From Erysipelotrichaceae bacterium (GTDB lineage Bacteria > Bacillota_I > Bacilli_A > Erysipelotrichales > Erysipelotrichaceae): a DNA stretch of 64,000 bases. How positions within the stretch are numbered: position 1 is the first letter of the stretch; each line of letters begins with the position of its first letter. The notes beneath the pieces are model-generated. The model searched no databases, was not told the DNA's origin, and saw only the letters and a list, made by a program, of their open reading frames with translations. The translations under genes and the position numbers were made by a program. Of this stretch, positions 18,022 through 55,022 are shown one piece after another. Where the stretch lies: assembly GCA_022772735.1 (NCBI GenBank), contig JALEZD010000003.1, forward strand, positions 1 to 64,000. The letters are read 5' to 3'.

Positions 18022-18048
18022 TATAATTTTTAGTGTATATGAGGGGGA
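18022..18048 (+). promoter_or_regulatory. -10 element and GGGGGAAT ribosome-binding site of the surface gene at 18052
   Basis: TATAAT is at 18022-18027 and GAGGGGGAAT at 18041-18050. GGGGAAT is the complement of the ATTCCCC carried in the loops of the predicted small RNA at 31636. The -35 element is unclear. Confidence 0.5.
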
Positions 18049-18051
18049 ATT

Positions 18052-19443
18052 ATGTTAAAGAATACATTGAAAATTATTTTTTCGTTTTTAACAATTATAG
18101 TTATGTATAGTTCTTTAAATATATTTGCACAAGAAAGTAATACAGTTAGCAATATTACATTAGATGTAAATTTAAATGAAGGAACATCAACCAATATTCC
18201 TACAACTGTTAATGTTTCATTAAATAATAATGAATATACAATCTCAAAAAATGATTTACAGTTTAATCCAGTAAGAACAGGATTTGAATTTGCGGGATGG
18301 ATAGTTGAAGCGGAAGTAATGTTATATGAACAGGGTGCACCAATATTTGATATGGAAGGATTCATCATTGGCTTTGAAACAGTAGCAGCTGGTGTAGAGA
18401 AGATAGCTATATCAAATAATGATTTTTTAGAAAAAGATATAAAAGTTCATTTAAGTGAAAATAAAGTATTAGATAAATTAATTTTATCTGCAAAATGGAA
18501 TAAAGTTGAATATGTAATTGCTAAATTTAATCTTGATGGTGGATTTGCACCACAAGATAACTTGAATATATTTGAAGATTATACAACTTCAATTATTACA
18601 GATGTTAACTCTGAACAATTAATTGAAACAGATGAATTTAAATATTTAGAAAATATTATACCTGTTAAAGATGGATATGTTTTTAAAGGTTGGAATGTTG
18701 AACAAGAACTAGAACTGTATGTAAATCAACCAATATTTGATATGGAGGGAGGTTTTGTTGGCTATTCAAAAGAGTTTGAAAAAGTAGAAAGCAGATTGAT
18801 TTATGATAATTACAATACTTCAAATATTTTCACATTCAAGAGTAATGCTATGGAAGTTGTTAAATATATTAAGTTTACAGCTATTTGGGAAAAGATAGAA
18901 AAAATTAAAATAGGTAAACATTTATGGAATGATTTAAATAAAGATGGTATATATGATGGTGTTGAAGAATCAGGAGTAGGTCTTACGGTACAATTATTTG
19001 ATACAAATAATGTAAAAATAAGCGAAACAATTACTGATGAACAAGGAAATTATGAGTTTATTGCTGATAAAAATTCTAAATATAAATTAAAATTTATTTT
19101 ACCTAATGACTATGAAATTACAACTAACTTTAATAATAAAGCAGCACAAAATTTAAATATTGTTGAAATAGATATTGATACAAAAGATGCAGATGATTAC
19201 TCATATAATATTGGGTATGTAAAAAGAGAAAATATACCAGTAAAAATTGAAGAAAAAAACAAAATAGAAATAAGTGTGAAACCTACACCAGAAACAACTG
19301 TTACTCCAAAAGAAAATATAGTTGTAAATCCAATACAAAAACAATGGAAAATACCAAACACTAGCAGCAACAATCATATATTTGCCTATATCTTAACGAT
19401 TGGGATTTCATTATTTTTAACATACAAATTAAAAAAACAGTAG
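18052..19443 (+). CDS. Wall-anchored surface protein with SdrD_B-like domain and IPNTS signal
   Basis: 463 residues. A signal peptide ends near the NIFAQE cleavage site (about residue 25). Two InlB/Listeria-Bacteroides-like modules follow, each with a YxxxPIFDMEG segment and F.GW motif (residues ~30-150 and ~160-280). An SdrD_B-like domain starts at GKHLWNDLNKDGIYDG (about 285-390). A linker leads to KIPNTS, a hydrophobic span and a KLKKQ tail. Unlike the six other surface proteins here, it lacks the C-x13-C module. A sortase is not encoded in the window. Confidence 0.85.
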   Translation: MLKNTLKIIFSFLTIIVMYSSLNIFAQESNTVSNITLDVNLNEGTSTNIPTTVNVSLNNNEYTISKNDLQFNPVRTGFEFAGWIVEAEVMLYEQGAPIFDMEGFIIGFETVAAGVEKIAISNNDFLEKDIKVHLSENKVLDKLILSAKWNKVEYVIAKFNLDGGFAPQDNLNIFEDYTTSIITDVNSEQLIETDEFKYLENIIPVKDGYVFKGWNVEQELELYVNQPIFDMEGGFVGYSKEFEKVESRLIYDNYNTSNIFTFKSNAMEVVKYIKFTAIWEKIEKIKIGKHLWNDLNKDGIYDGVEESGVGLTVQLFDTNNVKISETITDEQGNYEFIADKNSKYKLKFILPNDYEITTNFNNKAAQNLNIVEIDIDTKDADDYSYNIGYVKRENIPVKIEEKNKIEISVKPTPETTVTPKENIVVNPIQKQWKIPNTSSNNHIFAYILTIGISLFLTYKLKKQ

Positions 19444-31534: not shown

Positions 31535-31620
31535 TCCCTAGGGAAATATTTCAAAATTTTCTTGGGTTAAGTTATTTTGGGAAATATTTATAAAAAATGG
31601 ACTTTATTTAAAAAAAAAGA
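31535..31620. other. Upstream region of the small RNA with an 11-bp direct repeat
   Basis: GGGAAATATTT occurs at 31541-31551 and 31579-31589, 38 bases apart. A TCCCTAGGGA palindrome lies directly after the tatD stop (31535-31544). No gene is visible. The repeats end about 34 bases before the small-RNA -10 element and could bind a regulator. Confidence 0.35.
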
Positions 31621-31629
31621 TGTTATAAT
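31621..31629 (+). promoter_or_regulatory. Extended -10 promoter of the small RNA
   Basis: TG-T-TATAAT is a perfect extended -10. The -35 is weak (TGGACT at 31598, 20-base spacer). Confidence 0.6.
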
Positions 31630-31635
31630 AAACAA

Positions 31636-31727
31636 GCGAACACAAGTTCGTATAGAGAACGCAATAACATTCCCCGTAGCGTCTTCTCTATTAGGCAATA
31701 CGCACATTCCCCGCGTATTGTTTTTTT
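31636..31727 (+). ncRNA. Predicted ~90-nt small RNA with twin C-rich loops
   Basis: Three hairpins follow the promoter. Hairpin 1: CGAAC/GTTCG (31637-31650). Hairpin 2: TAGAGAACGC pairs with GCG-TC-TTCTCTA (31653-31690) around a loop holding AACATTCCCCG. Hairpin 3: CAATACGC/GCGTATTG (31696-31720), a perfect 8-base stem with loop ACATTCCCC, then T7, which makes it a terminator. The same C-rich loop appears twice. GCACATTCCCC (31702-31712) is complementary to GGGGAATGTGC at 52742-52752, the ribosome-binding site of a surface gene. It resembles in plan the CU-rich sRNAs of Listeria (LhrC) and Staphylococcus. It is not a sequence I know. Confidence 0.7.
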
Positions 31728-31747
31728 ATTTATCTTAGTAATATAAT
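31718..31747 (+). promoter_or_regulatory. Promoter giving a leaderless rnmV mRNA
   Basis: TTGTTT (31718-31723) and TATAAT (31742-31747) are 18 bases apart. The rnmV ATG at 31754 falls where transcription should begin, and no ribosome-binding site precedes it. Confidence 0.45.
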
Positions 31748-34792: not shown

Positions 34793-35305
34793 ATCGATAC
34801 ACTCCAATTTCTCTATAATTTTGATAACTAACTGACAATAAAAGTAAACTTTATTTAATTTTGATTTAAATTTAAACATTGTATAAAAAAGAACTAAATT
34901 AGAAATATTTATTAAAAAGTACTAATAAAGTGTCCTTTGTACAACTATATTTGAACATTCTAGATTTTATTATTTGATTTAATATAAATTAATCTGTTTT
35001 TAAAACATTGTAGATTGTAATAACTCATAACCATCATCTTATATCATATAAGATTATTACAAACAACATTGCTAGTTCTAATTTAATTATAAGCAATAAA
35101 TAAATAAAAACAAATGCTAGAAGGTAATTTTTATGGTTGTAAAGTTTTTATTGTAAACCACAAAAAAGTACAAAGTTTATGTGTTTAAATGGATTGTAAA
35201 AACAGGTGAATAACTTAATAAAATTAAAAAAATCGTTGATAAATTTTTTACAAAGGAATAAACTTAATGTGTATTAAATACATTATACGTGGGGAGAGGT
35301 ATATC
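34793..35305. other. Long AT-rich intergenic region
   Basis: About 510 bases without a convincing gene. It holds a stem at about 35037-35055 (ATCTTATAT / ATATAAGAT) and, near 35233, a weak TTGATA promoter-like element for the surface gene at 35306. No known RNA was recognised. Confidence 0.4.
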
Positions 35306-37015
35306 ATGAAGAGATTACTTAATAGATTTTTTTGCTTTGTTTTAGTATTGTTTTTAATATCAACAAGCTTTTTTTATGCAAATGCAGAAAGTATGGATAA
35401 TTTAAATTGTGCAATATACAACAACATAAATGAAAAAGTTAGAGTTGATAAACTTGAACAGGTAATATTTGGATATGACTTTGCGACAGGCAACATGGGT
35501 ATTTTAAATACAAATAGGTTGAATGAGAGTTCATATATTAAAGAAAATGTTATTGCAAATATAACAAATGATGGAACGATTAAAGAAGGAGATTATTTTA
35601 CATACGAGTTGGACAAAGCTAGTAGACTTGGGGGGTTTTTAATTCCGGAAGCTATAAAAGTTGATGATATATATGTAGTTAATCCACAAGGAGTTTCAGA
35701 AGTTTTTGCGTATGCATTTTATGATGCTTCTAAAAATATAATTACCTATGTATTGAGCGATTTTATTGAAAAAGTTAACAGTGTTGATTTCGATTTGGAA
35801 CAAGGATGGATAATAAAATCGGATATAGTAAAATATAATGGTGCATACACATTTAAAGATAAATTTGCGAATAAAGAAATTAGTTATACTTATGAAATAG
35901 ATTATGGCGCAAACTATGATGAAAGAATGCAAGGAAATACATTCAGTTTGGTCTCTAGATTTTTGAATATTAATCCTAATGATAAAACTTATGAACAAAT
36001 TGGGATATTAAATCCAAGAGGTCAAGCATTTTCTGATGGATTTGCTGTTGAATATATAAGTGGTGTTGAAAATGGTGAATATGTTACACCACTAAATGAT
36101 CAAAGTATATTTAAAATTTTTGAAGTTCCTGATGATTATCAAATTCCAGATACATTTAATATAGAATTTGACAAATTAAATGATGTGACAGACACATTCG
36201 CAAAACTGGATGGTTTACAAGGTTTTACAAAATATGAAATGCCTATGGAATCAACATCTAAAAGATATATATTTTATTTAAAAAATAATTATCTATCTAG
36301 AAAAGAACAAAATGCAGATGGTGTAATGGTTGAAACACAAAGAACAATAAGCAGTGGATTTAATGTTGTTATTACAAATTCTGCGAATACTAACCATACA
36401 GTATCTAACAAGATAATGGAAGATACGTTCTCTAGTTTAGCAGGTGGTGCTGATGCAAGAAAATCATATTGTCAAAGAGATAGAAAATTATCAATTGAAA
36501 AAAGTGATTTAGTTGATGCGAATAAAAAACTTGAAGGTGCAAAGTTTGAAATTAGAAAAGATGGAAATGTTTTAGAAACAATCACAACAGACTCTAATGG
36601 AGTTGCATATAGCAGTAAATTGCCATTAGGAACATATATTATTAAAGAAGTTGAAGCTCCTTCAGGCTATGAAATATTAAATGAAGAAACATCTATAGAA
36701 TTAGTAAGTACGGACGAATCAATTAAAATTTTAAATATCACAAATAAAAAAATACCTGAGGTAATTAAACCAACACCTTTACCAACACCAACGCCTAAAG
36801 TAACACCAAGCCCAACGCCAGAAATTAAAAAAACATGTGAAGATGAAGGTAAAGTTTGGGATGATTCAAAACAAATGTGTGTAGTAAAAACCAATAAAAT
36901 AAAAAATATGTCTTATAAAGTTCCTAATACAAGTGTTAGTCTAAATATTACAGGATATGCACTTATGTGCTTTAGCGCAACATTTATTTTGTTGAAAAAA
37001 GTATTTAAAATATAA
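35306..37015 (+). CDS. Wall-anchored surface protein with SpaA-like domain, C-x13-C module and VPNTS
   Basis: 569 residues from the ATG that follows GTGGGGAGAGG (an upstream in-frame ATG at 35267 lacks such a site). Signal peptide ends at about ANAES. Residues ~30-390 form a beta-rich adhesin-like region I do not recognise. A SpaA/Cna-B prealbumin-like domain follows (about 392-485: LSIEKSDLVDANKKLEGAKF, LPLGTYIIKEVEAPSGYE); Lys in IEKSD and Glu in IKEVEAP suit an intramolecular isopeptide bond. Then a Thr/Pro linker, TCEDEGKVWDDSKQMC, KVPNTS, a span and a basic end. Confidence 0.87.
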   Translation: MKRLLNRFFCFVLVLFLISTSFFYANAESMDNLNCAIYNNINEKVRVDKLEQVIFGYDFATGNMGILNTNRLNESSYIKENVIANITNDGTIKEGDYFTYELDKASRLGGFLIPEAIKVDDIYVVNPQGVSEVFAYAFYDASKNIITYVLSDFIEKVNSVDFDLEQGWIIKSDIVKYNGAYTFKDKFANKEISYTYEIDYGANYDERMQGNTFSLVSRFLNINPNDKTYEQIGILNPRGQAFSDGFAVEYISGVENGEYVTPLNDQSIFKIFEVPDDYQIPDTFNIEFDKLNDVTDTFAKLDGLQGFTKYEMPMESTSKRYIFYLKNNYLSRKEQNADGVMVETQRTISSGFNVVITNSANTNHTVSNKIMEDTFSSLAGGADARKSYCQRDRKLSIEKSDLVDANKKLEGAKFEIRKDGNVLETITTDSNGVAYSSKLPLGTYIIKEVEAPSGYEILNEETSIELVSTDESIKILNITNKKIPEVIKPTPLPTPTPKVTPSPTPEIKKTCEDEGKVWDDSKQMCVVKTNKIKNMSYKVPNTSVSLNITGYALMCFSATFILLKKVFKI

Positions 37016-44458: not shown

Positions 44459-44553
44459 TGTTTTGTTGGGGAATAAAAACATACATGTTCGGATTGTAAA
44501 AATATCGTAATTATGGAATAATTTGATTATAGTTTTTATATAGGGGGAAATGT

Positions 44554-46593
44554 ATGAAAAGCACAGTTTTAAAGGTATTTTTGTTATTTTTTGTGATTTT
44601 ATCTGGTTTTAGTTTTTATACGCATGCTGAAACGATAAACACAAAAAATTATACTGTTGAAGGAGATTTGCTAATAGGGTATGATGGTGTTTCTTTTTCA
44701 AGTACAGAATCAAGTATGTTTGTTGTAAATAGAACAAAGGAAGAATTTAGTATTTTAGGCGAATTATATATTGATTCAATAAAAACTGAACTAAATAATA
44801 TTGCAAGTGAAAAACTTGGAAGCAAAAATGAATATTCGAGATATCAAAATATAATTTTAAGTGAAACAAATTTAACTTTTTCAGCCAAATTTAATTTTCC
44901 ATCTGAAATTGATTTATCAAATATTGGTTTAAGTTTGAATAATTTTAGTGGTTCAAATAATTTAGGTGTTCATAATGAATTGTTTTATATAAATAGCTCA
45001 AATATTATAAATGAAGCAAATGGAACAAAAACTTTAAATGTTGAATTTAAGGTTTATGACAATGTTTTTTTAACTTTTAAAGATTTATATGACAAAGTTT
45101 ATTCTATGAATGATTTAGGATTAATGATTAATGGATTAAGTTTTTTAGATGGTTCAACTGCTAATAAGAGTTATGAAGTGACAGGGTTAATTACTGGTAA
45201 TTTATCTACAAAGGCAACAGTAAATAACAGTTTAGGAGTTTTTGTAAGTGAAAAATTTGAGATATCATGGGGTGGTCAACAAAGGAATGGTTTTAATGAT
45301 GTAAATCACCCAAATGAAAGTGATATGTACTTATCAATATATTTAAAAGATGTTAAATTGGTTGACCTAGAAGGTGATTTAAGTGTAGCACCAGATGAAA
45401 ATACAGATTATGATAGTACAGATACAGCACCTTATGTTGTTGAAAATAGAGATAATAAAATTTTTATAGGAGCTTATTTGGAAACAAGCAAAATAAAGGA
45501 TCAAATCAATAATATTGCAAAGGAGATTTTAGATCCGTACCATATGAATGATCCTCTTGTATATGAAAATATCAAGCTTGAAAATTTAGATACAGCCTTT
45601 ACTTCATACATTTATTTTGAAAAAGAGTTTGATGTTAATTCAATCGACAATAATTCAATACGTTTAAGAGCTGTAGATTCTAATTTAGCAATTGTTGATT
45701 ATAATGGAATATACGAAATTAAAAATATTAAAAAAGATGAAACTTATGTAGATTCTAATGGACAAGAGTACAAATTAGTACAAGTTGATTTTGGTTTAAA
45801 GAACAGTGTCGTAATTAATAATTTTAAGGAAATTTATGATTTAGTTTCAAATGAGCCAAATTTATTTTTAGAGCTTAATAATGCAAAATTGAATAGTAGT
45901 GAAGTTAACAATGGTGAATATTATTCACTATATGGGTTTGTTAATGGAAGTTTTTATTCAGATGCTAAAGTTTCTATTTTAGGTGTAGGTAATTTGGAAA
46001 AATCATTTGAGTTTGATTGGCAAGCAGTTCAAGGAGATGGAAAAGACTTATATTTAAAAGATGTTAATGATATTGCGCTGACAGTAAGATTACTTGAAAC
46101 AAAAAATGTTTCTTATAATTTTAAATCAGAAAATGCAAATGATACATTGCCAGCTGGCTTGCTTGATAGATTATCAAATAAAAATAAAACAAATGTTGCT
46201 TTTGATACAGAAGTTAATGTAAATGATATTGATATAAGTGATTTTCCAGTTGCAGAAAAAGATGGTGTTTGGAAATTTGTAGGCTGGGATAAAAATAGTA
46301 TAAAAATTGGTAATGACAATATTACATTTACAGGTTCTTGGAGATTTGTGAAGAACGATAAACAATCAACAACAAATAACACATCTATAACTTCATCAAG
46401 TACAAGTAAAAAAGTGACATGTGCTGATGAAGGCAAGGTTTGGAATGAGTCAAAAGGAGCTTGTTTAAACAATGTTTTAAGAGTAATTCCTAATACAGGG
46501 AGTAGAGAATCTCTTGGAATATATATTGTAATAGCAGCAGTGGGATTTATTTTATTGGTAATTTTAAGATTGAAATTTAGAAAAAAGAAATAA
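44554..46593 (+). CDS. Large surface protein with duplicated domain, SHIRT-like domain, C-x13-C and IPNTG
   Basis: 679 residues. Signal peptide to about 25. Two copies of a ~200-residue domain (about 60-250 and 300-510), each with an I-x-x-[QE]-[LI]-x-x-[IV]-A helix near its start and an F-[ED]-[IF]-[SD]-W strand near its end. A SHIRT-like module follows (about 515-605; GVWKFVGWDKNS ... FTGSWRF). Then a Ser/Thr linker, TCADEGKVWNESKGAC, VIPNTG, a hydrophobic span and RKKK. The ribosome-binding site is AGGGGGAAA. It probably faces the outside as an adhesin or fibre. Confidence 0.87.
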   Translation: MKSTVLKVFLLFFVILSGFSFYTHAETINTKNYTVEGDLLIGYDGVSFSSTESSMFVVNRTKEEFSILGELYIDSIKTELNNIASEKLGSKNEYSRYQNIILSETNLTFSAKFNFPSEIDLSNIGLSLNNFSGSNNLGVHNELFYINSSNIINEANGTKTLNVEFKVYDNVFLTFKDLYDKVYSMNDLGLMINGLSFLDGSTANKSYEVTGLITGNLSTKATVNNSLGVFVSEKFEISWGGQQRNGFNDVNHPNESDMYLSIYLKDVKLVDLEGDLSVAPDENTDYDSTDTAPYVVENRDNKIFIGAYLETSKIKDQINNIAKEILDPYHMNDPLVYENIKLENLDTAFTSYIYFEKEFDVNSIDNNSIRLRAVDSNLAIVDYNGIYEIKNIKKDETYVDSNGQEYKLVQVDFGLKNSVVINNFKEIYDLVSNEPNLFLELNNAKLNSSEVNNGEYYSLYGFVNGSFYSDAKVSILGVGNLEKSFEFDWQAVQGDGKDLYLKDVNDIALTVRLLETKNVSYNFKSENANDTLPAGLLDRLSNKNKTNVAFDTEVNVNDIDISDFPVAEKDGVWKFVGWDKNSIKIGNDNITFTGSWRFVKNDKQSTTNNTSITSSSTSKKVTCADEGKVWNESKGACLNNVLRVIPNTGSRESLGIYIVIAAVGFILLVILRLKFRKKK

Positions 46594-46599
46594 ATTTAG

Positions 46600-46634
46600 C
46601 AAAATGCAGGAGTTATAAAACCCTGTATTTTTTG
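46600..46634 (+). terminator. Terminator after the 44554 gene
   Basis: AAAATGCAGG and CCTGTATTTTT pair across a short loop. Confidence 0.65.
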
Positions 46635-46697
46635 TTTGAATTAATCTCAGTTAATGAGAGTTTATGAAAAACGTATTCTAAAATTCAGAGTCAAAGG

Positions 46698-46726
46698 TTG
46701 TCTTTTCATTGGTTATGTAGGATAAT
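46698..46726 (+). promoter_or_regulatory. Promoter of the 46752 surface gene
   Basis: TTGTCT (46698) and GATAAT (46721) are 17 bases apart; the leader is short and contains GTGGGGAGAT. Confidence 0.5.
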
Positions 46727-46751
46727 ATTTAAGATAAAGTGGGGAGATATT

Positions 46752-48263
46752 ATGAAAAAAAGTATTTTTAAATTTGCATTGGCACTTATTTTTTCTTTAT
46801 CAATTTTAAATGTCAATGTATTTGCAGAACAACCTGTTGGTACAGATGCTACAAGTAATACAGGAACTGAAGCAGGTAGTACAGAAAATGCAGATGCTAG
46901 TGCATCATCAACAAGTGGAACAGCACAGCCTGCAGATACAACTGCTCAACCTACAGATACTACAGCACAACCAGCAGATGCAACAGCATCTCAACCAGCA
47001 ACGCAACCTAGTGCTGAAAGTGTTTTGAATCTGAGAAATGGTGTAAATGCTGCAAGTGTATACAAAGCTGAGACAACACTAGATGGGGATATGTTTATCA
47101 GCAAAGATGGAACAAATTATGATACAACAACACAACAACCAATAGTTGTTGAGGAACCTATAAATACTATAAAAGTTGGCTCATTTTTAGATGTTTCAAA
47201 AATAAGAGATCAAGTTGTTCAAGTTGCAGCTGATATTTTAGGATCATTTAATAACCCAGCATTGTATAGTCAAATAAGTCTTACTGATACAGTATCAACT
47301 TTCCAAGTGGTAATCACATTAGATTCAGGCTTAGATGCAGGTGCAGCATTACCTGTGTTAAAAAAATACAATGATGCAACCGGACAACCTGAAGCATACA
47401 ATGGTATTTGGAGTATAAATAGTGCAAGAGAAGGTGAAACCTCTTTTGTAATAAATTTTTCAATAGATGGAAGTAACTTTACTACATATGAAGCATTAAG
47501 AAATGCAATTGTTGCAGAACCAAACCTATTCTTAGAACTTGAAAATGTTAAAATAAAGGATAATGTCCTTCATGAAACAAATTATTCTGTTAAGGGTGAT
47601 TTAAGTGGTTCATTTAGTTCAAAAGCATCTGCTATGGGTGTTTCAAGAGATATTCAACTAACTTGGAATCTTGCACAAAAAGCAGGTGGAGCAGACTCTG
47701 TTGTAACAAACGGTGTAGGTGCAACTTTGAAATTTGTGAGACAATTAAGAACTGTTAAATATAGTTTTGAAAAAGCTGACGGCACAACACTTAATCTTCC
47801 TGCAGAACTTATTGCAAGATTGCCACAAGATGCAAGAATTCCAACTAAAACTTTAGTTGATACAAGTGCAATTAATGTTAGTAACTATGAAGATGTTGCA
47901 AATAATGGAACTTGGTCATTTGTAGGTTGGGATAAAGCGAATGCGACTGTTGAGGCTGATGATATTACATTTGTTGGGAAATGGAAATTTACATTAAAAA
48001 CTCCTAGTAACCCTTCAACTCCAACACCTTCAACTCCTACAACTGTGAAAACAACAACTGTTCAACCAAAAGCTAAATGGACATGTGCAGATGAAGGAAA
48101 AGTATGGAATGAATCAAAACAAATGTGTGTAGTTGCAACAACTGTTAAATCAAACGCATATAAAGTTCCAAATACATCAAGTTTAGGAAGTTTATTTGGT
48201 AATTACATATTAAGTATGTTGTCTATTGCTGGCTTAATAGTTATTAAAAAAATAAAGAAATAA
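46752..48263 (+). CDS. Surface protein with one shared domain, SHIRT-like domain, C-x13-C and VPNTS
   Basis: 503 residues from the ATG after GGGGAGATAT. Signal peptide ends at VFAEQ. A Ala/Thr/Gln/Pro-rich region (~25-85) with near-repeats of QPADTTA leads into one copy of the ~200-residue domain also found in its neighbours (KIRDQVVQVAADIL ... IQLTWNLAQKAGGADSV). A SHIRT-like module (GTWSFVGWDKANAT), Thr/Pro linker, TCADEGKVWNESKQMC, KVPNTS, a span and KKIKK complete it. Confidence 0.88.
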   Translation: MKKSIFKFALALIFSLSILNVNVFAEQPVGTDATSNTGTEAGSTENADASASSTSGTAQPADTTAQPTDTTAQPADATASQPATQPSAESVLNLRNGVNAASVYKAETTLDGDMFISKDGTNYDTTTQQPIVVEEPINTIKVGSFLDVSKIRDQVVQVAADILGSFNNPALYSQISLTDTVSTFQVVITLDSGLDAGAALPVLKKYNDATGQPEAYNGIWSINSAREGETSFVINFSIDGSNFTTYEALRNAIVAEPNLFLELENVKIKDNVLHETNYSVKGDLSGSFSSKASAMGVSRDIQLTWNLAQKAGGADSVVTNGVGATLKFVRQLRTVKYSFEKADGTTLNLPAELIARLPQDARIPTKTLVDTSAINVSNYEDVANNGTWSFVGWDKANATVEADDITFVGKWKFTLKTPSNPSTPTPSTPTTVKTTTVQPKAKWTCADEGKVWNESKQMCVVATTVKSNAYKVPNTSSLGSLFGNYILSMLSIAGLIVIKKIKK

Positions 48264-48268
48264 TGATT

Positions 48269-48304
48269 AAATCCTTCATCTTTATATAAGAAGAAGGATT
48301 TTTT
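48269..48304 (+). terminator. Terminator after the 46752 gene
   Basis: AATCCTTC and GAAGGATT pair, followed by T5. Confidence 0.75.
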
Positions 48305-48427
48305 AATTTAAATTTTTGGATTTAGTAAAAGAGTAAATCTTAAAAAACTTTAAGAAAAGCCACTTTAAGTTGAATTGTATATAGTATGATGAGATAATAA
48401 CCCCTGAGTAATGGAGGATATAATACA

Positions 48428-49801
48428 ATGTTTAAAAGTACAAAAATAATTCTTTCTTTTTGTTTAATTTTTACACTTTTTACTATAAACGCATTTGCAG
48501 AAACAAAGAATTTAGAAGGGGATTTATATTTAAGTAAAGATAATGTTAGTTTTGATTCAACAAATGATGAACCATTTAAGATGAAAGAACCTGAAAAAGA
48601 ATTGTATTTGGGAGCATCTTTAAATACTTCAAAAATAAATGAACAACTAAAAGAAGTTGCCGCAAAAGAACTTGGAGAATTTAATAAAGAGGAGTTGTAT
48701 CAATTTATTAATTTTTTAGATATAGCTACTGAATTTACTGCAGAATTCACATTTGATGGTGTGTTTAATATTGATAAAGTGAATGAAAGTAATGTTGAAC
48801 TTAGGAGCTATGTAAAAAATGGAGATTCATTAAATGCCAGTACATATGATGGAATGTGGAAAATAGCTCGTGTTGAACCTAATTTGGACAATAAAAAGAT
48901 TAAAGTCAATTTTCAGTTAAAGTCAAACTACCCTATTGGGGATTACCCTAGTTTTGCATTATTAAAAATTGCATTAGAAAAAGAAAAAGATTTATTTTTA
49001 ACAATAAAAGGGATTGAAGTAGAGGATTGGGCAAAACATAATACAAACTATAAAATTAGTGGAACAGTAAATGGAAGTTTTCTTGCTGTTGCTAATTATC
49101 CGAACACTCAAGACCCACAAAATCCAATAACAAAAAAACTTGAATTTAATTGGACTGGAGTACAAGAAACTGAAGGAGCAGACTCAGTTTCACCAAATGA
49201 AATTGCAACAACATTAAAATATGAAAGAATTCTTAGAAAGGTTTCATACAAATTTACTACAGATAGTCAAATAGCATTGCCTGATGCAATAAAAAATAGA
49301 TTACCTCAAGTAAGTGAACATCCAACAAGAGAAGTTGTCACTCCACAAAATGTTGATTTATCAGATTACACTGATAATGTTAATAGAGGCGTATGGAAGT
49401 TTGAAAGTTGGAATCAAAATGCATTTTCAATTATAGATACAGATGTGGAGTTTGTCGGAAAATGGAAGTTTGAAGCAAATCCAGTAACACCTCCACCAGT
49501 AGTAACACCAATACCATCAACTCCTACACCAACTCCATCAGTAAATAATGCAAAAACTTCAACTGTTACAAATGTAAAACCTGCAAGTACATCAAAACCA
49601 AAATTAACTTGCGAAGATGAAGGTAAAGTATGGAATGAAACAAAACAAATGTGTGTTGCTAAAGAAGTTTTAGTAAGTAAATACGCTCATAAAGTTCCTA
49701 ATACAGGAAGCAAATCAAATATATTAATGAGCATAGTAACAATACTTATTTCTGTGTCTGGATTGTTTATTTTAAAAACAAAATTTAAAAATAAAAATTA
49801 A
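48428..49801 (+). CDS. Surface protein with shared domain, SHIRT-like domain, C-x13-C and VPNTG
   Basis: 457 residues. Signal peptide to about AFAET. The shared ~200-residue domain (KINEQLKEVAAKELG ... KKLEFNWTGVQETEGADSV), then a SHIRT-like module ending FVGKWKF, a Pro/Thr linker, TCEDEGKVWNETKQMC, KVPNTG, a span and KNKN. Unlike its relatives its ribosome-binding site is ATGGAGG, not GGGGA, so it would escape C-rich-loop pairing. Confidence 0.87.
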   Translation: MFKSTKIILSFCLIFTLFTINAFAETKNLEGDLYLSKDNVSFDSTNDEPFKMKEPEKELYLGASLNTSKINEQLKEVAAKELGEFNKEELYQFINFLDIATEFTAEFTFDGVFNIDKVNESNVELRSYVKNGDSLNASTYDGMWKIARVEPNLDNKKIKVNFQLKSNYPIGDYPSFALLKIALEKEKDLFLTIKGIEVEDWAKHNTNYKISGTVNGSFLAVANYPNTQDPQNPITKKLEFNWTGVQETEGADSVSPNEIATTLKYERILRKVSYKFTTDSQIALPDAIKNRLPQVSEHPTREVVTPQNVDLSDYTDNVNRGVWKFESWNQNAFSIIDTDVEFVGKWKFEANPVTPPPVVTPIPSTPTPTPSVNNAKTSTVTNVKPASTSKPKLTCEDEGKVWNETKQMCVAKEVLVSKYAHKVPNTGSKSNILMSIVTILISVSGLFILKTKFKNKN

Positions 49802-49836
49802 TTGTGATTATAAAAAATAGTCACAATTTTTTTTTG
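49800..49836 (+). terminator. Terminator after the 48428 gene
   Basis: AATTGTGA and TCACAATT pair and are followed by a long T run. Confidence 0.8.
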
Positions 49837-49908
49837 AGCAAACAAGTGGAATAAAAAAATTCAATTTGATATTATTAGCTGGTTTTAATATAAACAAAAG
49901 GAGAAACT

Positions 49909-50298
49909 ATGATTAAATCAATCGGGCAAGTAATGCTATATGTAAATGATACAGAAAATGCAAAAAATTTTTGGATAAATAAAGTGGGTTTTAAACTAAT
50001 TGAAGAATTAGTTAACGAATACGAAGGGGTAAAATATTTTTCTTATGTTATTGCACCTGAAGAAAAATCAGACGTTCAATTTGTGCTACATAGTAAAGAG
50101 TTTGTTTCTAAAGTAAGCCCAGAAGTTGGATTAGGAAATCCATCAATTTTAATGTCTAGCTTAGATATCGAAAATACATACAACATGTTTATTAAAAATG
50201 GAGTAAAAGCTAATCCAATCGTAAATGTGTTTGAAGGAAAAGTATTTAATTTCTGTGATGAAGAAGAAAATTATTATGCAATAAGAGAGGTAAAATAA
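49909..50298 (+). CDS. VOC/glyoxalase-family protein
   Basis: 129 residues with the paired beta-alpha-beta-beta-beta layout (SIGQVMLYVNDTENAKNFWINKVGF). Possible metal ligands are not the full glyoxalase I set, so the substrate is open. It ends one base before a second VOC gene, forming a small cassette between surface-protein genes. Confidence 0.82.
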   Translation: MIKSIGQVMLYVNDTENAKNFWINKVGFKLIEELVNEYEGVKYFSYVIAPEEKSDVQFVLHSKEFVSKVSPEVGLGNPSILMSSLDIENTYNMFIKNGVKANPIVNVFEGKVFNFCDEEENYYAIREVK

Positions 50299-50299
50299 A

Positions 50300-50710
50300 A
50301 TGATTAAAGAGATAGGAGTTTATTTTGTTACTAACGGTAACGGATTAGAAGCAGTAGAATTTTATAAAGAAAAATTAAATGCAGAAGTTAAATCGCTTAC
50401 TCTTTTTGGAGATTTTATGCCAGAATGCCCAGATGAATATAAAAAATTAGTTATGAATGCTCAACTTTATGTTGATGGTATAAGAATTCAATTATCTGAT
50501 GAAAATCCTGAATTTGAATATAAAGGTGGAACAAATATGGCTGCCACAATAATCGCAAAAGATGTTGAAACAGCTAAAAAATATTATCAAAATTTAACAG
50601 AAGATTGCCAAAAAATATTCATGGAATTACAAGAAGTTCCATGGTCACCTGCATATGCTGGATTTGTAGATAAATTCGGAATGATGTGGCAAATTAATGT
50701 TGAAATCTAA
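50300..50710 (+). CDS. PhnB-like VOC-family protein
   Basis: 136 residues. EIGVYFVTNGNGLEAVEFYKEKL and the ending VDKFGMMWQINVE match the PhnB-like branch of the VOC superfamily (demethylmenaquinone-methyltransferase-like / 3-dmu-9-3mt). Biochemical role not known. It is cotranscribed with the previous gene. Confidence 0.83.
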   Translation: MIKEIGVYFVTNGNGLEAVEFYKEKLNAEVKSLTLFGDFMPECPDEYKKLVMNAQLYVDGIRIQLSDENPEFEYKGGTNMAATIIAKDVETAKKYYQNLTEDCQKIFMELQEVPWSPAYAGFVDKFGMMWQINVEI

Positions 50711-50746
50711 AAATCAAATCTTAAGAATTAATGTAATAAGAATATT

Positions 50747-50766
50747 TTTATTGCAATTGCAATAAA
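50747..50766. promoter_or_regulatory. 20-bp perfect palindrome over the -35 of the 50802 gene
   Basis: The half site TTTATTGCAA is followed directly by its inverse. It covers TTGCAA (50751-50756), which with TATAAT (50773-50778, 16-base spacer) makes a promoter. A dimeric regulator probably binds here. Confidence 0.6.
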
Positions 50767-50801
50767 TACGTATATAATTTTTAAAAGCGGGGAGAGGTAA
50801 A

Positions 50802-52628
50802 ATGAAAAAAACTATTAAAACGTGTATGGCGTTATTTTGTTCTGTTTTAATTGTTGTAAGTTCTTCAATGACAAATGTTTTTGCAGAAGGCACAACTGAA
50901 GATTTACAACCAGTTGAAACAACTAATGAAACAGCTGAAAAAGTAAATGAAACTACAAATGTTGAAACACAAACATTACCAGAAAATACAGAAGAAACTC
51001 AACCAACTGAAACAGTTGTTGAGCAACCAAGTGAAAATACAACATCAGAAAATACACCTTCTGAAAATATAGAACAACCAATAGAAGTTGAGAATAAAGA
51101 AGAAACATCTGAGGAAGCAACTACAACAAGTGCAGAAGTAAATAAAGAAGAAGTGTCTACTAATGTTGCACCAGCAGCACTTCAAGCTACACCAGTCACA
51201 ACAACTGGCTCAACAGGCTTTAGAAGTAGTGGAATAACTGCACCAGTTACAACTGCAAGTGCACCAGCAGGTTATACAACATTAACTATGAAAATTAATG
51301 ATAATACTGCAGAAGCTACAAAAAGCTATCAAAGTGAAAATGATGTGATTGGCATGCCTGATGGATGGGGAGACTCAAACTGGCATATTAGAACATATAG
51401 AAAAATATTTTTAGGTTGGACACCTGTTGAAAATTATACTGGTGCCCCAGAAGAAACAATATATAGCTATGGTGAAACAGTAAAAACTCTTGTTGAAAAT
51501 GGTGATGCAAATAAGCCATTATATCCAGTATATGCAAGCATGTTTGATGCACTTGCATTAGAATCAGAGTTAACTGGAATGATTGAAATTAATAAATCAA
51601 TGACAGCTGAAGAAACTTTACCAAATTCAGAAGTTAAAGAGAGTTTAGGATTTGAATCAGGAACTCCTGCAAAAACTGCAACGGTTTATTTCAATCCTTC
51701 AACAAATGCTTATGAAGTTTCTTTAGATACACACTTTAGATTCAGTAATAATAAAGTTGCAGCTATTGTTGCAGCAAATCCTGTTGGATTATTAAAAACA
51801 GCAGAGGGAATTACTGATTTTGGTGGTCAAAATCCAACAGCGTATAGTTATGTTGATTTACATGTAAAATTAGATCCAAGAGTAGATGTAGCAACTGCAT
51901 TCAATAATGTAACATTTACAAGTGGATTGTTTATGGCACGTGCTGTTTTAGATGAGAACTATAATGTTGTTAAAACAATCGATACTTTACCATTAAGTGG
52001 AGAAAAGAGTGCAACATTCAGCTTTGACAATCCAAATAAATTTAAAACATTTATTATTAGAACTACTTTAAGAAACTATGGACAAGATGGTGGTTCTAAC
52101 CAAGCATATAGAACAAATAACTTATCTTCTGACTTTATTTTTGGAGATATGATATTGTCAAGCGGTGATAAAACTAATGTCACTATAAATAAACCAGTTG
52201 CAGAAGCAATCAAAGATACAGGAGATGAATTGGTTTTTGATGGACATATTGATGGAAAAGCTGCAATAAATACTGCTATACTTCCTTTTCCATTAAATTT
52301 ATTTGCACCAAGAAGTATGAGTATAGATAGAGTTGATTCATCTAATACAGTTAACATTAAATTTGTAACTGATAATAGAGTAAAACCTGTAACTCCAGAA
52401 GTAAAACCAACTACTCCAACAACACCAACTGTTACAAAGGTTGAGCCAAAACTAACATGTGCTGATGAAGGAAAAGTATGGAATGAATCAAAACAAGCAT
52501 GTGTGATTGAGGGTGCTTTAAAAGTACATGTAGTTCCAAATACTGCAACAAATATTAGCTCATTGAGTTATTATGTTATAAGCTTGATTTCTGTTTTGGG
52601 AATTGCAGTTTTAAAAATAAAAAAATAA
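50802..52628 (+). CDS. Surface protein with shortened SHIRT-like strand, C-x13-C and VPNTA
   Basis: 608 residues. Signal peptide to about FAEGT, then a ~110-residue Thr/Glu/Asn/Pro-rich region. An InlB-like module (FLGWTPVENYTG) and large beta-rich region follow. Near residue 525 only one SHIRT-like strand (NTVNIKFVTDNRVKP) remains before the linker, where the neighbour at 52755 has a full module. The last ~65 residues (TCADEGKVWNESKQAC, VVPNTA, span) are almost identical to that neighbour. The ribosome-binding site is GCGGGGAGAGG. Confidence 0.87.
   Translation: MKKTIKTCMALFCSVLIVVSSSMTNVFAEGTTEDLQPVETTNETAEKVNETTNVETQTLPENTEETQPTETVVEQPSENTTSENTPSENIEQPIEVENKEETSEEATTTSAEVNKEEVSTNVAPAALQATPVTTTGSTGFRSSGITAPVTTASAPAGYTTLTMKINDNTAEATKSYQSENDVIGMPDGWGDSNWHIRTYRKIFLGWTPVENYTGAPEETIYSYGETVKTLVENGDANKPLYPVYASMFDALALESELTGMIEINKSMTAEETLPNSEVKESLGFESGTPAKTATVYFNPSTNAYEVSLDTHFRFSNNKVAAIVAANPVGLLKTAEGITDFGGQNPTAYSYVDLHVKLDPRVDVATAFNNVTFTSGLFMARAVLDENYNVVKTIDTLPLSGEKSATFSFDNPNKFKTFIIRTTLRNYGQDGGSNQAYRTNNLSSDFIFGDMILSSGDKTNVTINKPVAEAIKDTGDELVFDGHIDGKAAINTAILPFPLNLFAPRSMSIDRVDSSNTVNIKFVTDNRVKPVTPEVKPTTPTTPTVTKVEPKLTCADEGKVWNESKQACVIEGALKVHVVPNTATNISSLSYYVISLISVLGIAVLKIKK
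52416..52605 (+). repeat. 190-bp near-identical 3' segment, copy 1
   Basis: It matches 54804-54993 with 2 differences (52511 and 52559). It encodes the linker, C-x13-C module, sorting signal and span. Such identity over otherwise diverged genes points to recent gene conversion or duplication. Confidence 0.85.
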
Positions 52629-52639
52629 TTTATTAATTA

Positions 52640-52675
52640 GAGTGTTTATCCAATTGTGATAGACACTTTTTTAAT
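52640..52675 (+). terminator. Terminator after the 50802 gene
   Basis: AGTGTTTATC pairs with GATAGACACT and T6 follows. Confidence 0.8.
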
Positions 52676-52702
52676 AAAAGTTTGAAAACCAAAATAAAAT
52701 TA

Positions 52703-52730
52703 TTGAAATATTGTCATAAAATTATATAAT
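52703..52730 (+). promoter_or_regulatory. Promoter of the 52755 surface gene
   Basis: TTGAAA (52703-52708) and TATAAT (52725-52730) are 16 bases apart. Transcription should begin near 52737, so the ribosome-binding site is almost at the 5' end of the mRNA. Confidence 0.6.
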
Positions 52731-52741
52731 CAAGTAGGACG

Positions 52742-52752
52742 GGGGAATGTGC
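52742..52752 (+). promoter_or_regulatory. Ribosome-binding site complementary to the small-RNA loop
   Basis: GGGGAATGTGC can form 11 contiguous pairs with 31702-31712 of the predicted small RNA. The GTG inside it (52749) is an in-frame start candidate, but the ATG at 52755 has the better spacing. Confidence 0.55.
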
Positions 52753-52754
52753 AT

Positions 52755-55022
52755 ATGTCAAAAACAAAGAAACTTTTACTTTTTGTTTTTAGTATAATAT
52801 TTTTGATTTCTGGAATACCTTTAACAGAAATATTAGCTGAAAACACAGAAGAGGCTGTTTTAAGTGGTGAAAATACATCGACAGAAACAATCTCAGAATC
52901 TAATGAAAATACAGAAACATCAAATGAAGAACAACCAATAGAAATAACCAACAATAATGAAACACCTCAAACTAATACAGAGGCAGAATCTAGTGAAAAT
53001 AAAGCTGGTGAATCTGTATCAGATTCAGGTTTAACTGTGGAAGAATCTGCTAAAGAACAACCAGCAGAATCAATAAATTCTAATATATCAGAATCAACTA
53101 ATACACCAATAGAAACAAATGAAAATACTTCAGAATCTGTAGGTGTAACTAGCTTTAGAGCAGCTAATACTGCAAGTTTGGCACCAGCATCAACATTGAC
53201 AGTAAAAATGAGTGGTCAATATTCTGGAACATCTGGTGATGTACATAGTTTTAATAAAAGTGAAATTAGAACTTTTACGAGCATGGATAGTGAACTTGGT
53301 CGTGGAGATGAACATGAGGGTTTATTTAACCACTTAAGAACAAATTTTGTCGGATGGACAGATATGCCTTTAAAAGCTGATGGAGATGTTCAAGATGGAG
53401 CAAGACTTTATTTACCAAAAGATAAATTATCAACTGCGTTTCCAAATGGTTTAACAGGAAATGATGAGCTATATGCTGTATATGTAAATTTAAATTTAAA
53501 TGTATCTTCAAGTAACATTTGGGGTATTTTAAGTATGCTTAATGGTAAGGTAGAAGATGTAGTTGGGTTAAAAGATTTAATTAACTCTGATAAGAATGTA
53601 GAAATAAATGGTAGTGTTGATGAAGAGAGTGCTTTGCCATTTACAGAAGTTAGTAAAGTAGAAACAGGTACGGAAAAGATTTTAGATGAAACTGGTAAAG
53701 ATGTTGATGTTGAGTCAACTACAATCTTAGACTTCTATAAAACAGCAAAAGATACAGATGTTCATGAAGTTGTTTTAAAATCATCTTTTGAAATGAATGA
53801 GAGAACTGCACTTCTTGTATATGCTAATCCGGGATTTGGATATGAATGGAAAGGTGTATTGACAGAAAACTATAAAACAGTAGAAATGATGACTGATAAA
53901 GTAGGAAAAGATGCAGGATACACACATATTGATTTAACAATAACAATTGATGATAGAGTAAATATTCCAGATAATTTTTATTTAGGTTTTAAAAATTATT
54001 CGTATAGACCTTTATATGTAAGAGATGACAATGGATATTTAGATATTTTAAATCCAAATGATGGAAGCAATCTAGGTGCAACAAAGGATTCTTTTAACTC
54101 ACTTATAAGTAATACATCACCTGATGTGTTTTTTGCGGTAAGCAATCCAAATAAGAGCAATAAATTTGTTATTAGAACTATACTAAGAGATGGTGTAGAA
54201 AGAATAAATTCTATTGATGCAGATAGTACAGAGTCTGCTGCAGAAAAGGTTATTACAAGTACAGAACTAGTTCTTTACACAAAAGAAGAACTTAAAACAA
54301 TGATTCCTAATTTATCTGAAGAAGAGTTAAATAAAAAAATATTTACTGTTGATGATACTGTTGTAAAAGAACTTGCAAAAACAAACGGAATGGATACTCT
54401 TAAAATTTCCGGATATGTTGATGGTGTTGCAAGGTCTTCTGTAGGAGTACATAATTTACCATTTTTGGGGTCATCAAATTTATACACATTTACACCTGTT
54501 TTAAGAACGTATTCTAATCTATTAAAACTTGGATATATTGATACATTTGATGTTAAATATGAGTTTTTATCAGACTCAGGAGTGCAATTACCTGCATCAG
54601 TAGTTAGTTTATTACCTCCAACACTTATAAATCAAAAATCAACAACTAATGTTGTACCACCTCTTTCATTCCCAAGTGTTAATGAAAATGGAGGAAGATG
54701 GGTATTTGTTGGATGGAATCTTGCAAATCAGGTAGTGGTTGATAGTGATTTAACATTTGTAGGAACATGGAAATTTATTAAAGATTCAATTCCTACTTCA
54801 ATACCAACAACACCAACTGTTACAAAGGTTGAGCCAAAACTAACATGTGCTGATGAAGGAAAAGTATGGAATGAATCAAAACAAGCATGTGTGATTGAAG
54901 GTGCTTTAAAAGTACATGTAGTTCCAAATACTGCAACAAATATTAGTTCATTGAGTTATTATGTTATAAGCTTGATTTCTGTTTTGGGAATTGTAGCATT
55001 AAAACTTAAATCAAACAAATAA
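52755..55022 (+). CDS. Largest surface protein: InlB-like, SHIRT-like, C-x13-C and VPNTA
   Basis: 755 residues. Signal peptide to about ILAEN, then a ~100-residue Glu/Ser/Thr/Asn-rich region. An InlB-like module (TNFVGWTDMP), a long beta-rich region, a full SHIRT-like module (VKYEFLSDSGVQLP ... VFVGWNLAN ... FVGTWKF, about 605-690), linker, TCADEGKVWNESKQAC, VVPNTA, span and KSNK. Its 3' 190 bases match the 50802 gene. Start choice is explained in the ribosome-binding-site entry. Confidence 0.88.
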   Translation: MSKTKKLLLFVFSIIFLISGIPLTEILAENTEEAVLSGENTSTETISESNENTETSNEEQPIEITNNNETPQTNTEAESSENKAGESVSDSGLTVEESAKEQPAESINSNISESTNTPIETNENTSESVGVTSFRAANTASLAPASTLTVKMSGQYSGTSGDVHSFNKSEIRTFTSMDSELGRGDEHEGLFNHLRTNFVGWTDMPLKADGDVQDGARLYLPKDKLSTAFPNGLTGNDELYAVYVNLNLNVSSSNIWGILSMLNGKVEDVVGLKDLINSDKNVEINGSVDEESALPFTEVSKVETGTEKILDETGKDVDVESTTILDFYKTAKDTDVHEVVLKSSFEMNERTALLVYANPGFGYEWKGVLTENYKTVEMMTDKVGKDAGYTHIDLTITIDDRVNIPDNFYLGFKNYSYRPLYVRDDNGYLDILNPNDGSNLGATKDSFNSLISNTSPDVFFAVSNPNKSNKFVIRTILRDGVERINSIDADSTESAAEKVITSTELVLYTKEELKTMIPNLSEEELNKKIFTVDDTVVKELAKTNGMDTLKISGYVDGVARSSVGVHNLPFLGSSNLYTFTPVLRTYSNLLKLGYIDTFDVKYEFLSDSGVQLPASVVSLLPPTLINQKSTTNVVPPLSFPSVNENGGRWVFVGWNLANQVVVDSDLTFVGTWKFIKDSIPTSIPTTPTVTKVEPKLTCADEGKVWNESKQACVIEGALKVHVVPNTATNISSLSYYVISLISVLGIVALKLKSNK
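54804..54993 (+). repeat. 190-bp near-identical 3' segment, copy 2
   Basis: Partner of 52416-52605 at a constant offset of 2388 bases. Confidence 0.85.

Follow-up and report, generated by a model that had tools for sequence, protein, structure and literature searches.

C-rich small RNAs in other bacteria

Small RNAs that present C-rich sequences to ribosome-binding sites (RBSs) are known from several Firmicutes. In the LhrC1-5 RNAs of Listeria monocytogenes a stem-loop and the loop of the terminator both contain UCCC motifs, and these bind the Shine-Dalgarno (SD) sequence of lapB, the gene of an anchored adhesin (PMC4132741); oppA and tcsA are further targets of LhrC (PMC5880928). Envelope stress induces LhrC through LisRK. 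RsaE and RoxS of Staphylococcus and Bacillus likewise use unpaired C-rich motifs for G-rich RBSs (PMC6435200, PMC4409812). Binding of lrgA by RsaE needs the AGGGGA RBS of this mRNA (PMC6435200), so pairing of the kind considered below works elsewhere in Firmicutes. C-rich hairpin loops also serve as seeds in the short RNAs 6C/B11 of mycobacteria (PMC12395582) and sX13 of Xanthomonas (PMC3771888). For Erysipelotrichaceae or Erysipelothrix our literature search found no described regulatory sRNA.

The window analysed here comprises 64,000 nucleotides of an Erysipelotrichaceae genome (contig JALEZD010000003.1), whose assembly consists of 1.79 Mb in 27 contigs. Between tatD and rnmV it holds a structured RNA element, the loop sequence of which matches the starts of most anchored adhesin genes. 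Judged from these matches, the element is probably an undescribed switch that turns down cell-wall-anchored adhesins in this uncultured Erysipelotrichaceae-type bacterium.

In its presumed working, LhrC is the closest analogue, while none of our tests indicates homology. Both RNAs are short and have redundant C-rich motifs, here UUCCCC, which all three species compared show both in hairpin 2 and in the loop of the terminator. LhrC blocks SD sequences of surface-protein genes; for the present RNA, complementary sites are enriched at the starts of anchored proteins, the translation of which it may block likewise. However, Listeria possesses five LhrC copies per genome and our genomes one, the fixed motif is longer (ACAUUCCCCG), a third motif in the linker is missing, the genomic place is different, and there is neither a sequence nor a covariance match in Rfam (a comparison that covers LhrC only if it is in the set). 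Because of the lack of homology and of multiple copies we regard the element as LhrC-like in its working, not as an LhrC. The seed is C-rich as in RsaE and RoxS, but the sRNA has no Rfam match to suggest homology with them; RsaE consists of two stem-loops with motifs partly in the linker and targets mainly central metabolism, and RsaE/RoxS are conserved across Bacillales, whereas the present sRNA is limited to one genus. 6C/B11 and sX13 differ in their high-GC hosts and other motifs, with no detectable homology. The present element suggests that two unrelated RNAs, LhrC and the one described here, reached the same solution of redundant C-rich loops tuning down surface adhesins.

Structure of the tatD-rnmV element

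The gap between the end of tatD (31534) and the start of rnmV (31754) holds an extended -10 promoter followed by three hairpins and a run of seven T. The original prediction of an element of about 90 bases with these parts is confirmed for 31634-31727 (about 94 nt, forward strand), with ends deduced from the sequence and the element itself supported by its folding z-score, its homologues at the same locus and the genus-limited matches of a covariance model. The promoter, TGTTATAAT at 31621-31629 (forward strand), has no clear -35 box and places the start of the sRNA at about 31634-31636. Hairpin 1 (31637-31650, forward strand; CGAAC-ACAA-GTTCG) is a 5' stem-loop with a loop that is not conserved. 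Hairpin 2 (31652-31691, forward strand) exposes an unpaired loop of 16 bases, AATAACATTCCCCGTA, in which 13 of 13 core columns are invariant. Hairpin 3 forms the intrinsic terminator (31693-31727, forward strand) with an 11-pair stem, a loop of 9 bases, ACATTCCCC, and the T7 run; its pairing spans 31693-31723 and the T7 run occupies 31721-31727. As had been claimed, two of the hairpin loops display an identical C-rich sequence: ACATTCCCCG lies at 31667-31676 in hairpin 2 and again at 31704-31713 in hairpin 3 (both forward strand), and a window-wide search found no further exact copy.

The minimum free energy of the sRNA is -29.0 kcal/mol, compared to a mean of -12.4 kcal/mol in shuffled sequences (z = -6.1), and none of 200 shuffles reached it. 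We identified both promoter and terminator by reading the sequence together with the predicted fold. The promoter, in which no clear -35 box is present, was not flagged by a simple motif scan, and a simple terminator scan missed the terminator because its 9-base loop exceeds the scanner limit of 8. No Rfam model reached its gathering score in any part of the window, and none matched the sRNA strand at E-values up to 10; the element thus fits no family in Rfam, in line with its earlier description as an unrecognised RNA. A match to IR_84 on the minus strand, seen at a relaxed threshold, has 16.9 bits against a gathering score of 51 and is attributable to chance.

Upstream of the promoter, at about 31540-31590 of the window, a direct repeat, GGGAAATATTT, occurs in the source genome only. 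It is a possible operator, or due to chance.

Given its position directly behind tatD and the intrinsic terminator at its end, the element could in principle do no more than terminate transcription of tatD, its remaining hairpins being due to chance. Its own extended -10, its three hairpins, folding z-scores of about -6 in three species and loops that are conserved while the flanks diverge make such an explanation extremely improbable. Being intergenic and compactly structured, with a promoter and a terminator of its own, the element has the general characteristics of a trans-acting base-pairing sRNA.

Conservation and distribution

We compared the source genome (G000) with two genus-mates (G001 and G002). 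Both possess the element at the same position before rnmV, the protein product of which is 66% identical, and locus, promoter and terminator of the sRNA are common to all three species. The promoter is found at equal distance, as TGTTATAAT in G002 and as TGATACAAT in G001, and the homologous RNAs of G001 and G002 fold with z-scores of -6.1 and -6.6, respectively.

The loop core ATTCCCCG is unchanged in all six loops of the three species. In the alignment 21 of 22 loop columns are invariant compared to 10 of 22 in the terminator stem, yet all cells of the latter are still paired and five of its 11 pairs are altered on both sides. Over the whole structure 94.9% of the cells are paired and six pairs changed on both sides, against 2.4 in shuffled alignments (six were reached in 1 of 500) and 0-2 when the structure was slid along the alignment. 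The structured RNA, its conservation and its fixed loops on covarying stems are thereby established, and the proposed selection on loop sequence is supported: freely varying loops in relatives had been named beforehand as a ground for refutation, and the loops do not vary as freely as the stems. The accompanying claim that the stems differ applies to hairpins 1 and 3 and to the inner part of hairpin 2, but not to the outer stem of hairpin 2, which is well conserved (14 of 16 columns). In G001 the stem of hairpin 1 is kept with other bases (CGAGTA/TACTCG); it is out of register in the three-species alignment, yet forms a stem of its own.

The distribution of the sRNA is narrow. A covariance model matched three of 273 genomes of the family, all of this genus and each with a single match, and the twin-loop pattern occurred in two of 395 genomes of the class, namely G000 and G002. 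A DNA search of 146 relatives gave only the genus below an E-value of 0.001, the other matches being noise caused by the T run or by short words. In the other genera examined the intergenic element is absent at rnmV, and in several the upstream gene is different as well. One candidate from another genus (G030, locus L050, about 1410-1490), a C-rich stretch with a T-run terminator before rnmV, was rejected because shuffles of it fold equally well (z = -0.14).

The position next to rnmV raises the question of a 5' leader or attenuator, in which the terminator hairpin would decide on read-through into the gene of RNase M5. A distance of 26 nt separates the terminator from rnmV, which follows downstream with the same orientation, and the three species share this synteny. 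However, a TATAAT at 31742-31747 (forward strand), 6 nt upstream of the rnmV ATG, is likely the gene's own promoter, and the same box stands downstream of the terminator and 6-7 nt before the ATG in all three genomes. According to this sequence transcription of rnmV probably starts separately and yields a leaderless mRNA, and the promoter-like -10 makes a leader role of the element unlikely. Moreover, the folds of the three species show no evident alternative antiterminator, and a leader does not explain fixed loops with matching sites at distant genes. We therefore give attenuation of rnmV very little probability.

Predicted target sites in the window

All RBSs of the window were read. GGGGA precedes the genes at 18052, 35306, 44554, 46752, 50802 and 52755, and six predicted target sites result, all on the forward strand. 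The best, GGGGAATGTGCATATG at 52742-52757, lies at the RBS of the CDS 52755-55022, which encodes an anchored SHIRT-domain protein; within this site GGGGAATGTGC is a perfect 11-nt complement of GCACATTCCCC in hairpin 3, and the duplex energy ranks first among 346 genes. Two further SHIRT-domain proteins have predicted sites at their RBSs, GGGGAAATGTATG at 44544-44556 (CDS 44554-46593) and GGGGAGATATTATG at 46741-46754 (CDS 46752-48263), as do an anchored surface protein to which no domain could be assigned (GGGGAGAGGTAAAATG at 50789-50804; CDS 50802-52628), an anchored SpaA/Big_8-domain protein (GGGGAGAGGTATATCATG at 35291-35308; CDS 35306-37015) and an anchored SdrD_B-domain protein (GGGGGAATTATG at 18043-18054; CDS 18052-19443). 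The six proteins are adhesin-like, with a signal peptide, a PNT-type sorting motif and a C-terminal membrane segment, and their domains include SHIRT, SpaA and SdrD_B. The gene of a seventh protein of this kind, at 48428, is preceded by an ordinary GGAGG instead. Compared to shuffles, the six predicted target genes show no excess similarity in their upstream sequences, which speaks against an inherited or copied 5' UTR as the source of the match to the loop.

Five anchored adhesin-like genes lie clustered at 44554-55022; four of them have SHIRT domains, and the genes are likely recent paralogues. Most of the proteins share a tail resembling CADEGKVWNESKQxC before the sorting motif.

Besides the six predicted targets, only one unrelated gene in the window, that at 247 (247-1542), has a GGGGA RBS. 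It encodes an uncharacterised non-surface protein of 431 aa without Pfam match.

Enrichment at starts of anchored proteins

A first pattern search in three genomes looked for the complement of the loop followed by a start codon. It placed GGGGAATGT at starts of secreted proteins, including one within the window (52742), and GGGGAA with a start codon was about 1.3 to 1.9 times as frequent as in the control. Since this pattern is too noisy alone, a test based on gene classes was adopted. Several sites of the 9-mer GGGGAATGT were dropped as targets, as they lie inside or antisense to genes.

The sample for the class-based test comprised 346 genes on sampled stretches of G000, none of them from contigs selected by a pattern match; gene starts were picked by an SD-weighted script, and further anchored proteins were located by domain search independently of their RBSs. 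Sites complementary to the loop are enriched at the starts of anchored surface proteins: GGGG[AG] occurs within 20 nt before the start in 8 of 11 anchored genes (six of these eight in the window) compared to 4 of 335 others (Fisher p = 1.7e-11). The surface genes of the sample are partly paralogous, and collapsed to protein families the contrast is 3 of 5 against 4 of 335 (p = 5e-5). GGGG is missing from three of the 11 anchored genes (48428, L309 and L242), L309 having GGAGTGT instead.

Ranked by the energy of their duplex with the hairpin 2 loop, the anchored genes stand apart from the others with an AUC of 0.92; for the anti-Shine-Dalgarno the AUC is 0.59. The core ACAUUCCCCG reaches an AUC of 0.90, which was matched by 0 of 200 full shuffles and by 4 of 200 shuffles that kept CCCC; the signal is therefore mostly CCCC, to which the flanks contribute a little. 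Outside the sRNA the full 9-mer GGGGAATGT occurs nine times in G000 and three times in G002, in each genome twice at starts of anchored surface proteins. Co-folding of the whole sRNA, which cannot represent contacts of the loop only, gave clear gains at only three of the six sites in the window; for a control gene that lacks GGGG the gain was -4.9.

At L245 (12447-18290) a 1948-aa anchored protein with M26 (IgA1-protease-type) and Rib domains has the RBS GGGGAATGTG, a 10-nt match to the sRNA loop.

The concentration of GGGGA/GGGGAAUGU sites on anchored surface proteins supports the suggestion, made when the element was first noticed, that its C-rich loops may pair with RBSs as those of Listeria LhrC do. 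Identical twin loops on differing stems are also typical of RNAs that act as protein sponges, and the element might be a decoy for an RNA-binding protein, in the manner of CsrB and CsrA, with pairing to mRNAs incidental. In that case, however, enrichment of the complement rather than of the motif itself at mRNA starts is unexpected; the motif is devoid of GGA, and no protein partner suggests itself. A decoy thus appears highly improbable.

Proposed function

We consider it likely that the element is a trans-acting sRNA of about 94 nt that represses the translation of adhesins by means of its twin loops; transcription, pairing and repression are all inferred here. Transcription of the sRNA would be driven by its own extended -10, in the gap separating tatD from rnmV, and stop at its own terminator, with hairpin 1 probably shielding the 5' end. 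Hairpins 2 and 3 would display two copies of one seed, ACAUUCCCCG, which may pair with GGGGA, at best with GGGGAAUGU(GC), at the RBS or start codon of mRNAs of anchored adhesin-like proteins. The loops would thus compete with ribosomes on these mRNAs and block initiation of translation, by which a single RNA could lower much of the surface protein repertoire of the cell.

A broader reading, to which we assign even chances, is that this genus-specific sRNA is the single post-transcriptional switch for most of the anchored repertoire, with unrelated adhesins (SHIRT, SpaA, SdrD_B, Cna_B/VWA pilin-like and Rib/M26) each having kept or gained the complement of the loop at their starts. The distribution of the sites suggests that a GGGGA (G-quartet) RBS can mark one functional class of genes within a genome. 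With the sRNA come a predicted regulon and a pairing rule that is open to test.

Predicted target sites in related genomes

In G002 the 9-mer GGGGAATGT lies on the RBS of a VWA/Cna_B pilin-like protein (L320). A second copy spans the start codon (ATGGGGAATGT) of a VPNTG-anchored Cna_B protein with a separate SD (L229), and owing to this position it is not a variant of the RBS. A third anchored protein (L321) has GGGGAAT.

The target picture is weaker in G001 than in G002. The one sortase-type anchored protein found there has no GGGG at its start, a membrane-anchored Big_3/glucosaminidase protein (L314) has GGGGGAAG, and the general frequency of GGGG[AG] is higher (28 of 429). Among relatives that lack the sRNA, a very small control, about 800 kb contained only one anchored protein, without GGGG.

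UCCC-type motifs in general recognise G-rich RBSs, and several opp (oligopeptide transport) genes of G001 (L294, L225), which belong to a known target class of LhrC (PMC5880928), have GGGGA RBSs. A genuine sRNA with C-rich loops could accordingly act mainly on metabolic or transport mRNAs, as RsaE/RoxS do, and GGGGA at surface-protein genes would then have another cause. We regard this as unlikely, since in G000 the excess of GGGG[AG] is confined to anchored proteins, with the 4 of 335 elsewhere as background, and the extended match to GGGGAAUGU falls on anchored proteins as well. Regulation of anchored adhesins remains our preferred reading.

A single in-frame stop interrupts the gene of a large VPNTS-anchored surface protein on contig C19 of G001 (L313/L322); the start of this gene lacks GGGG.
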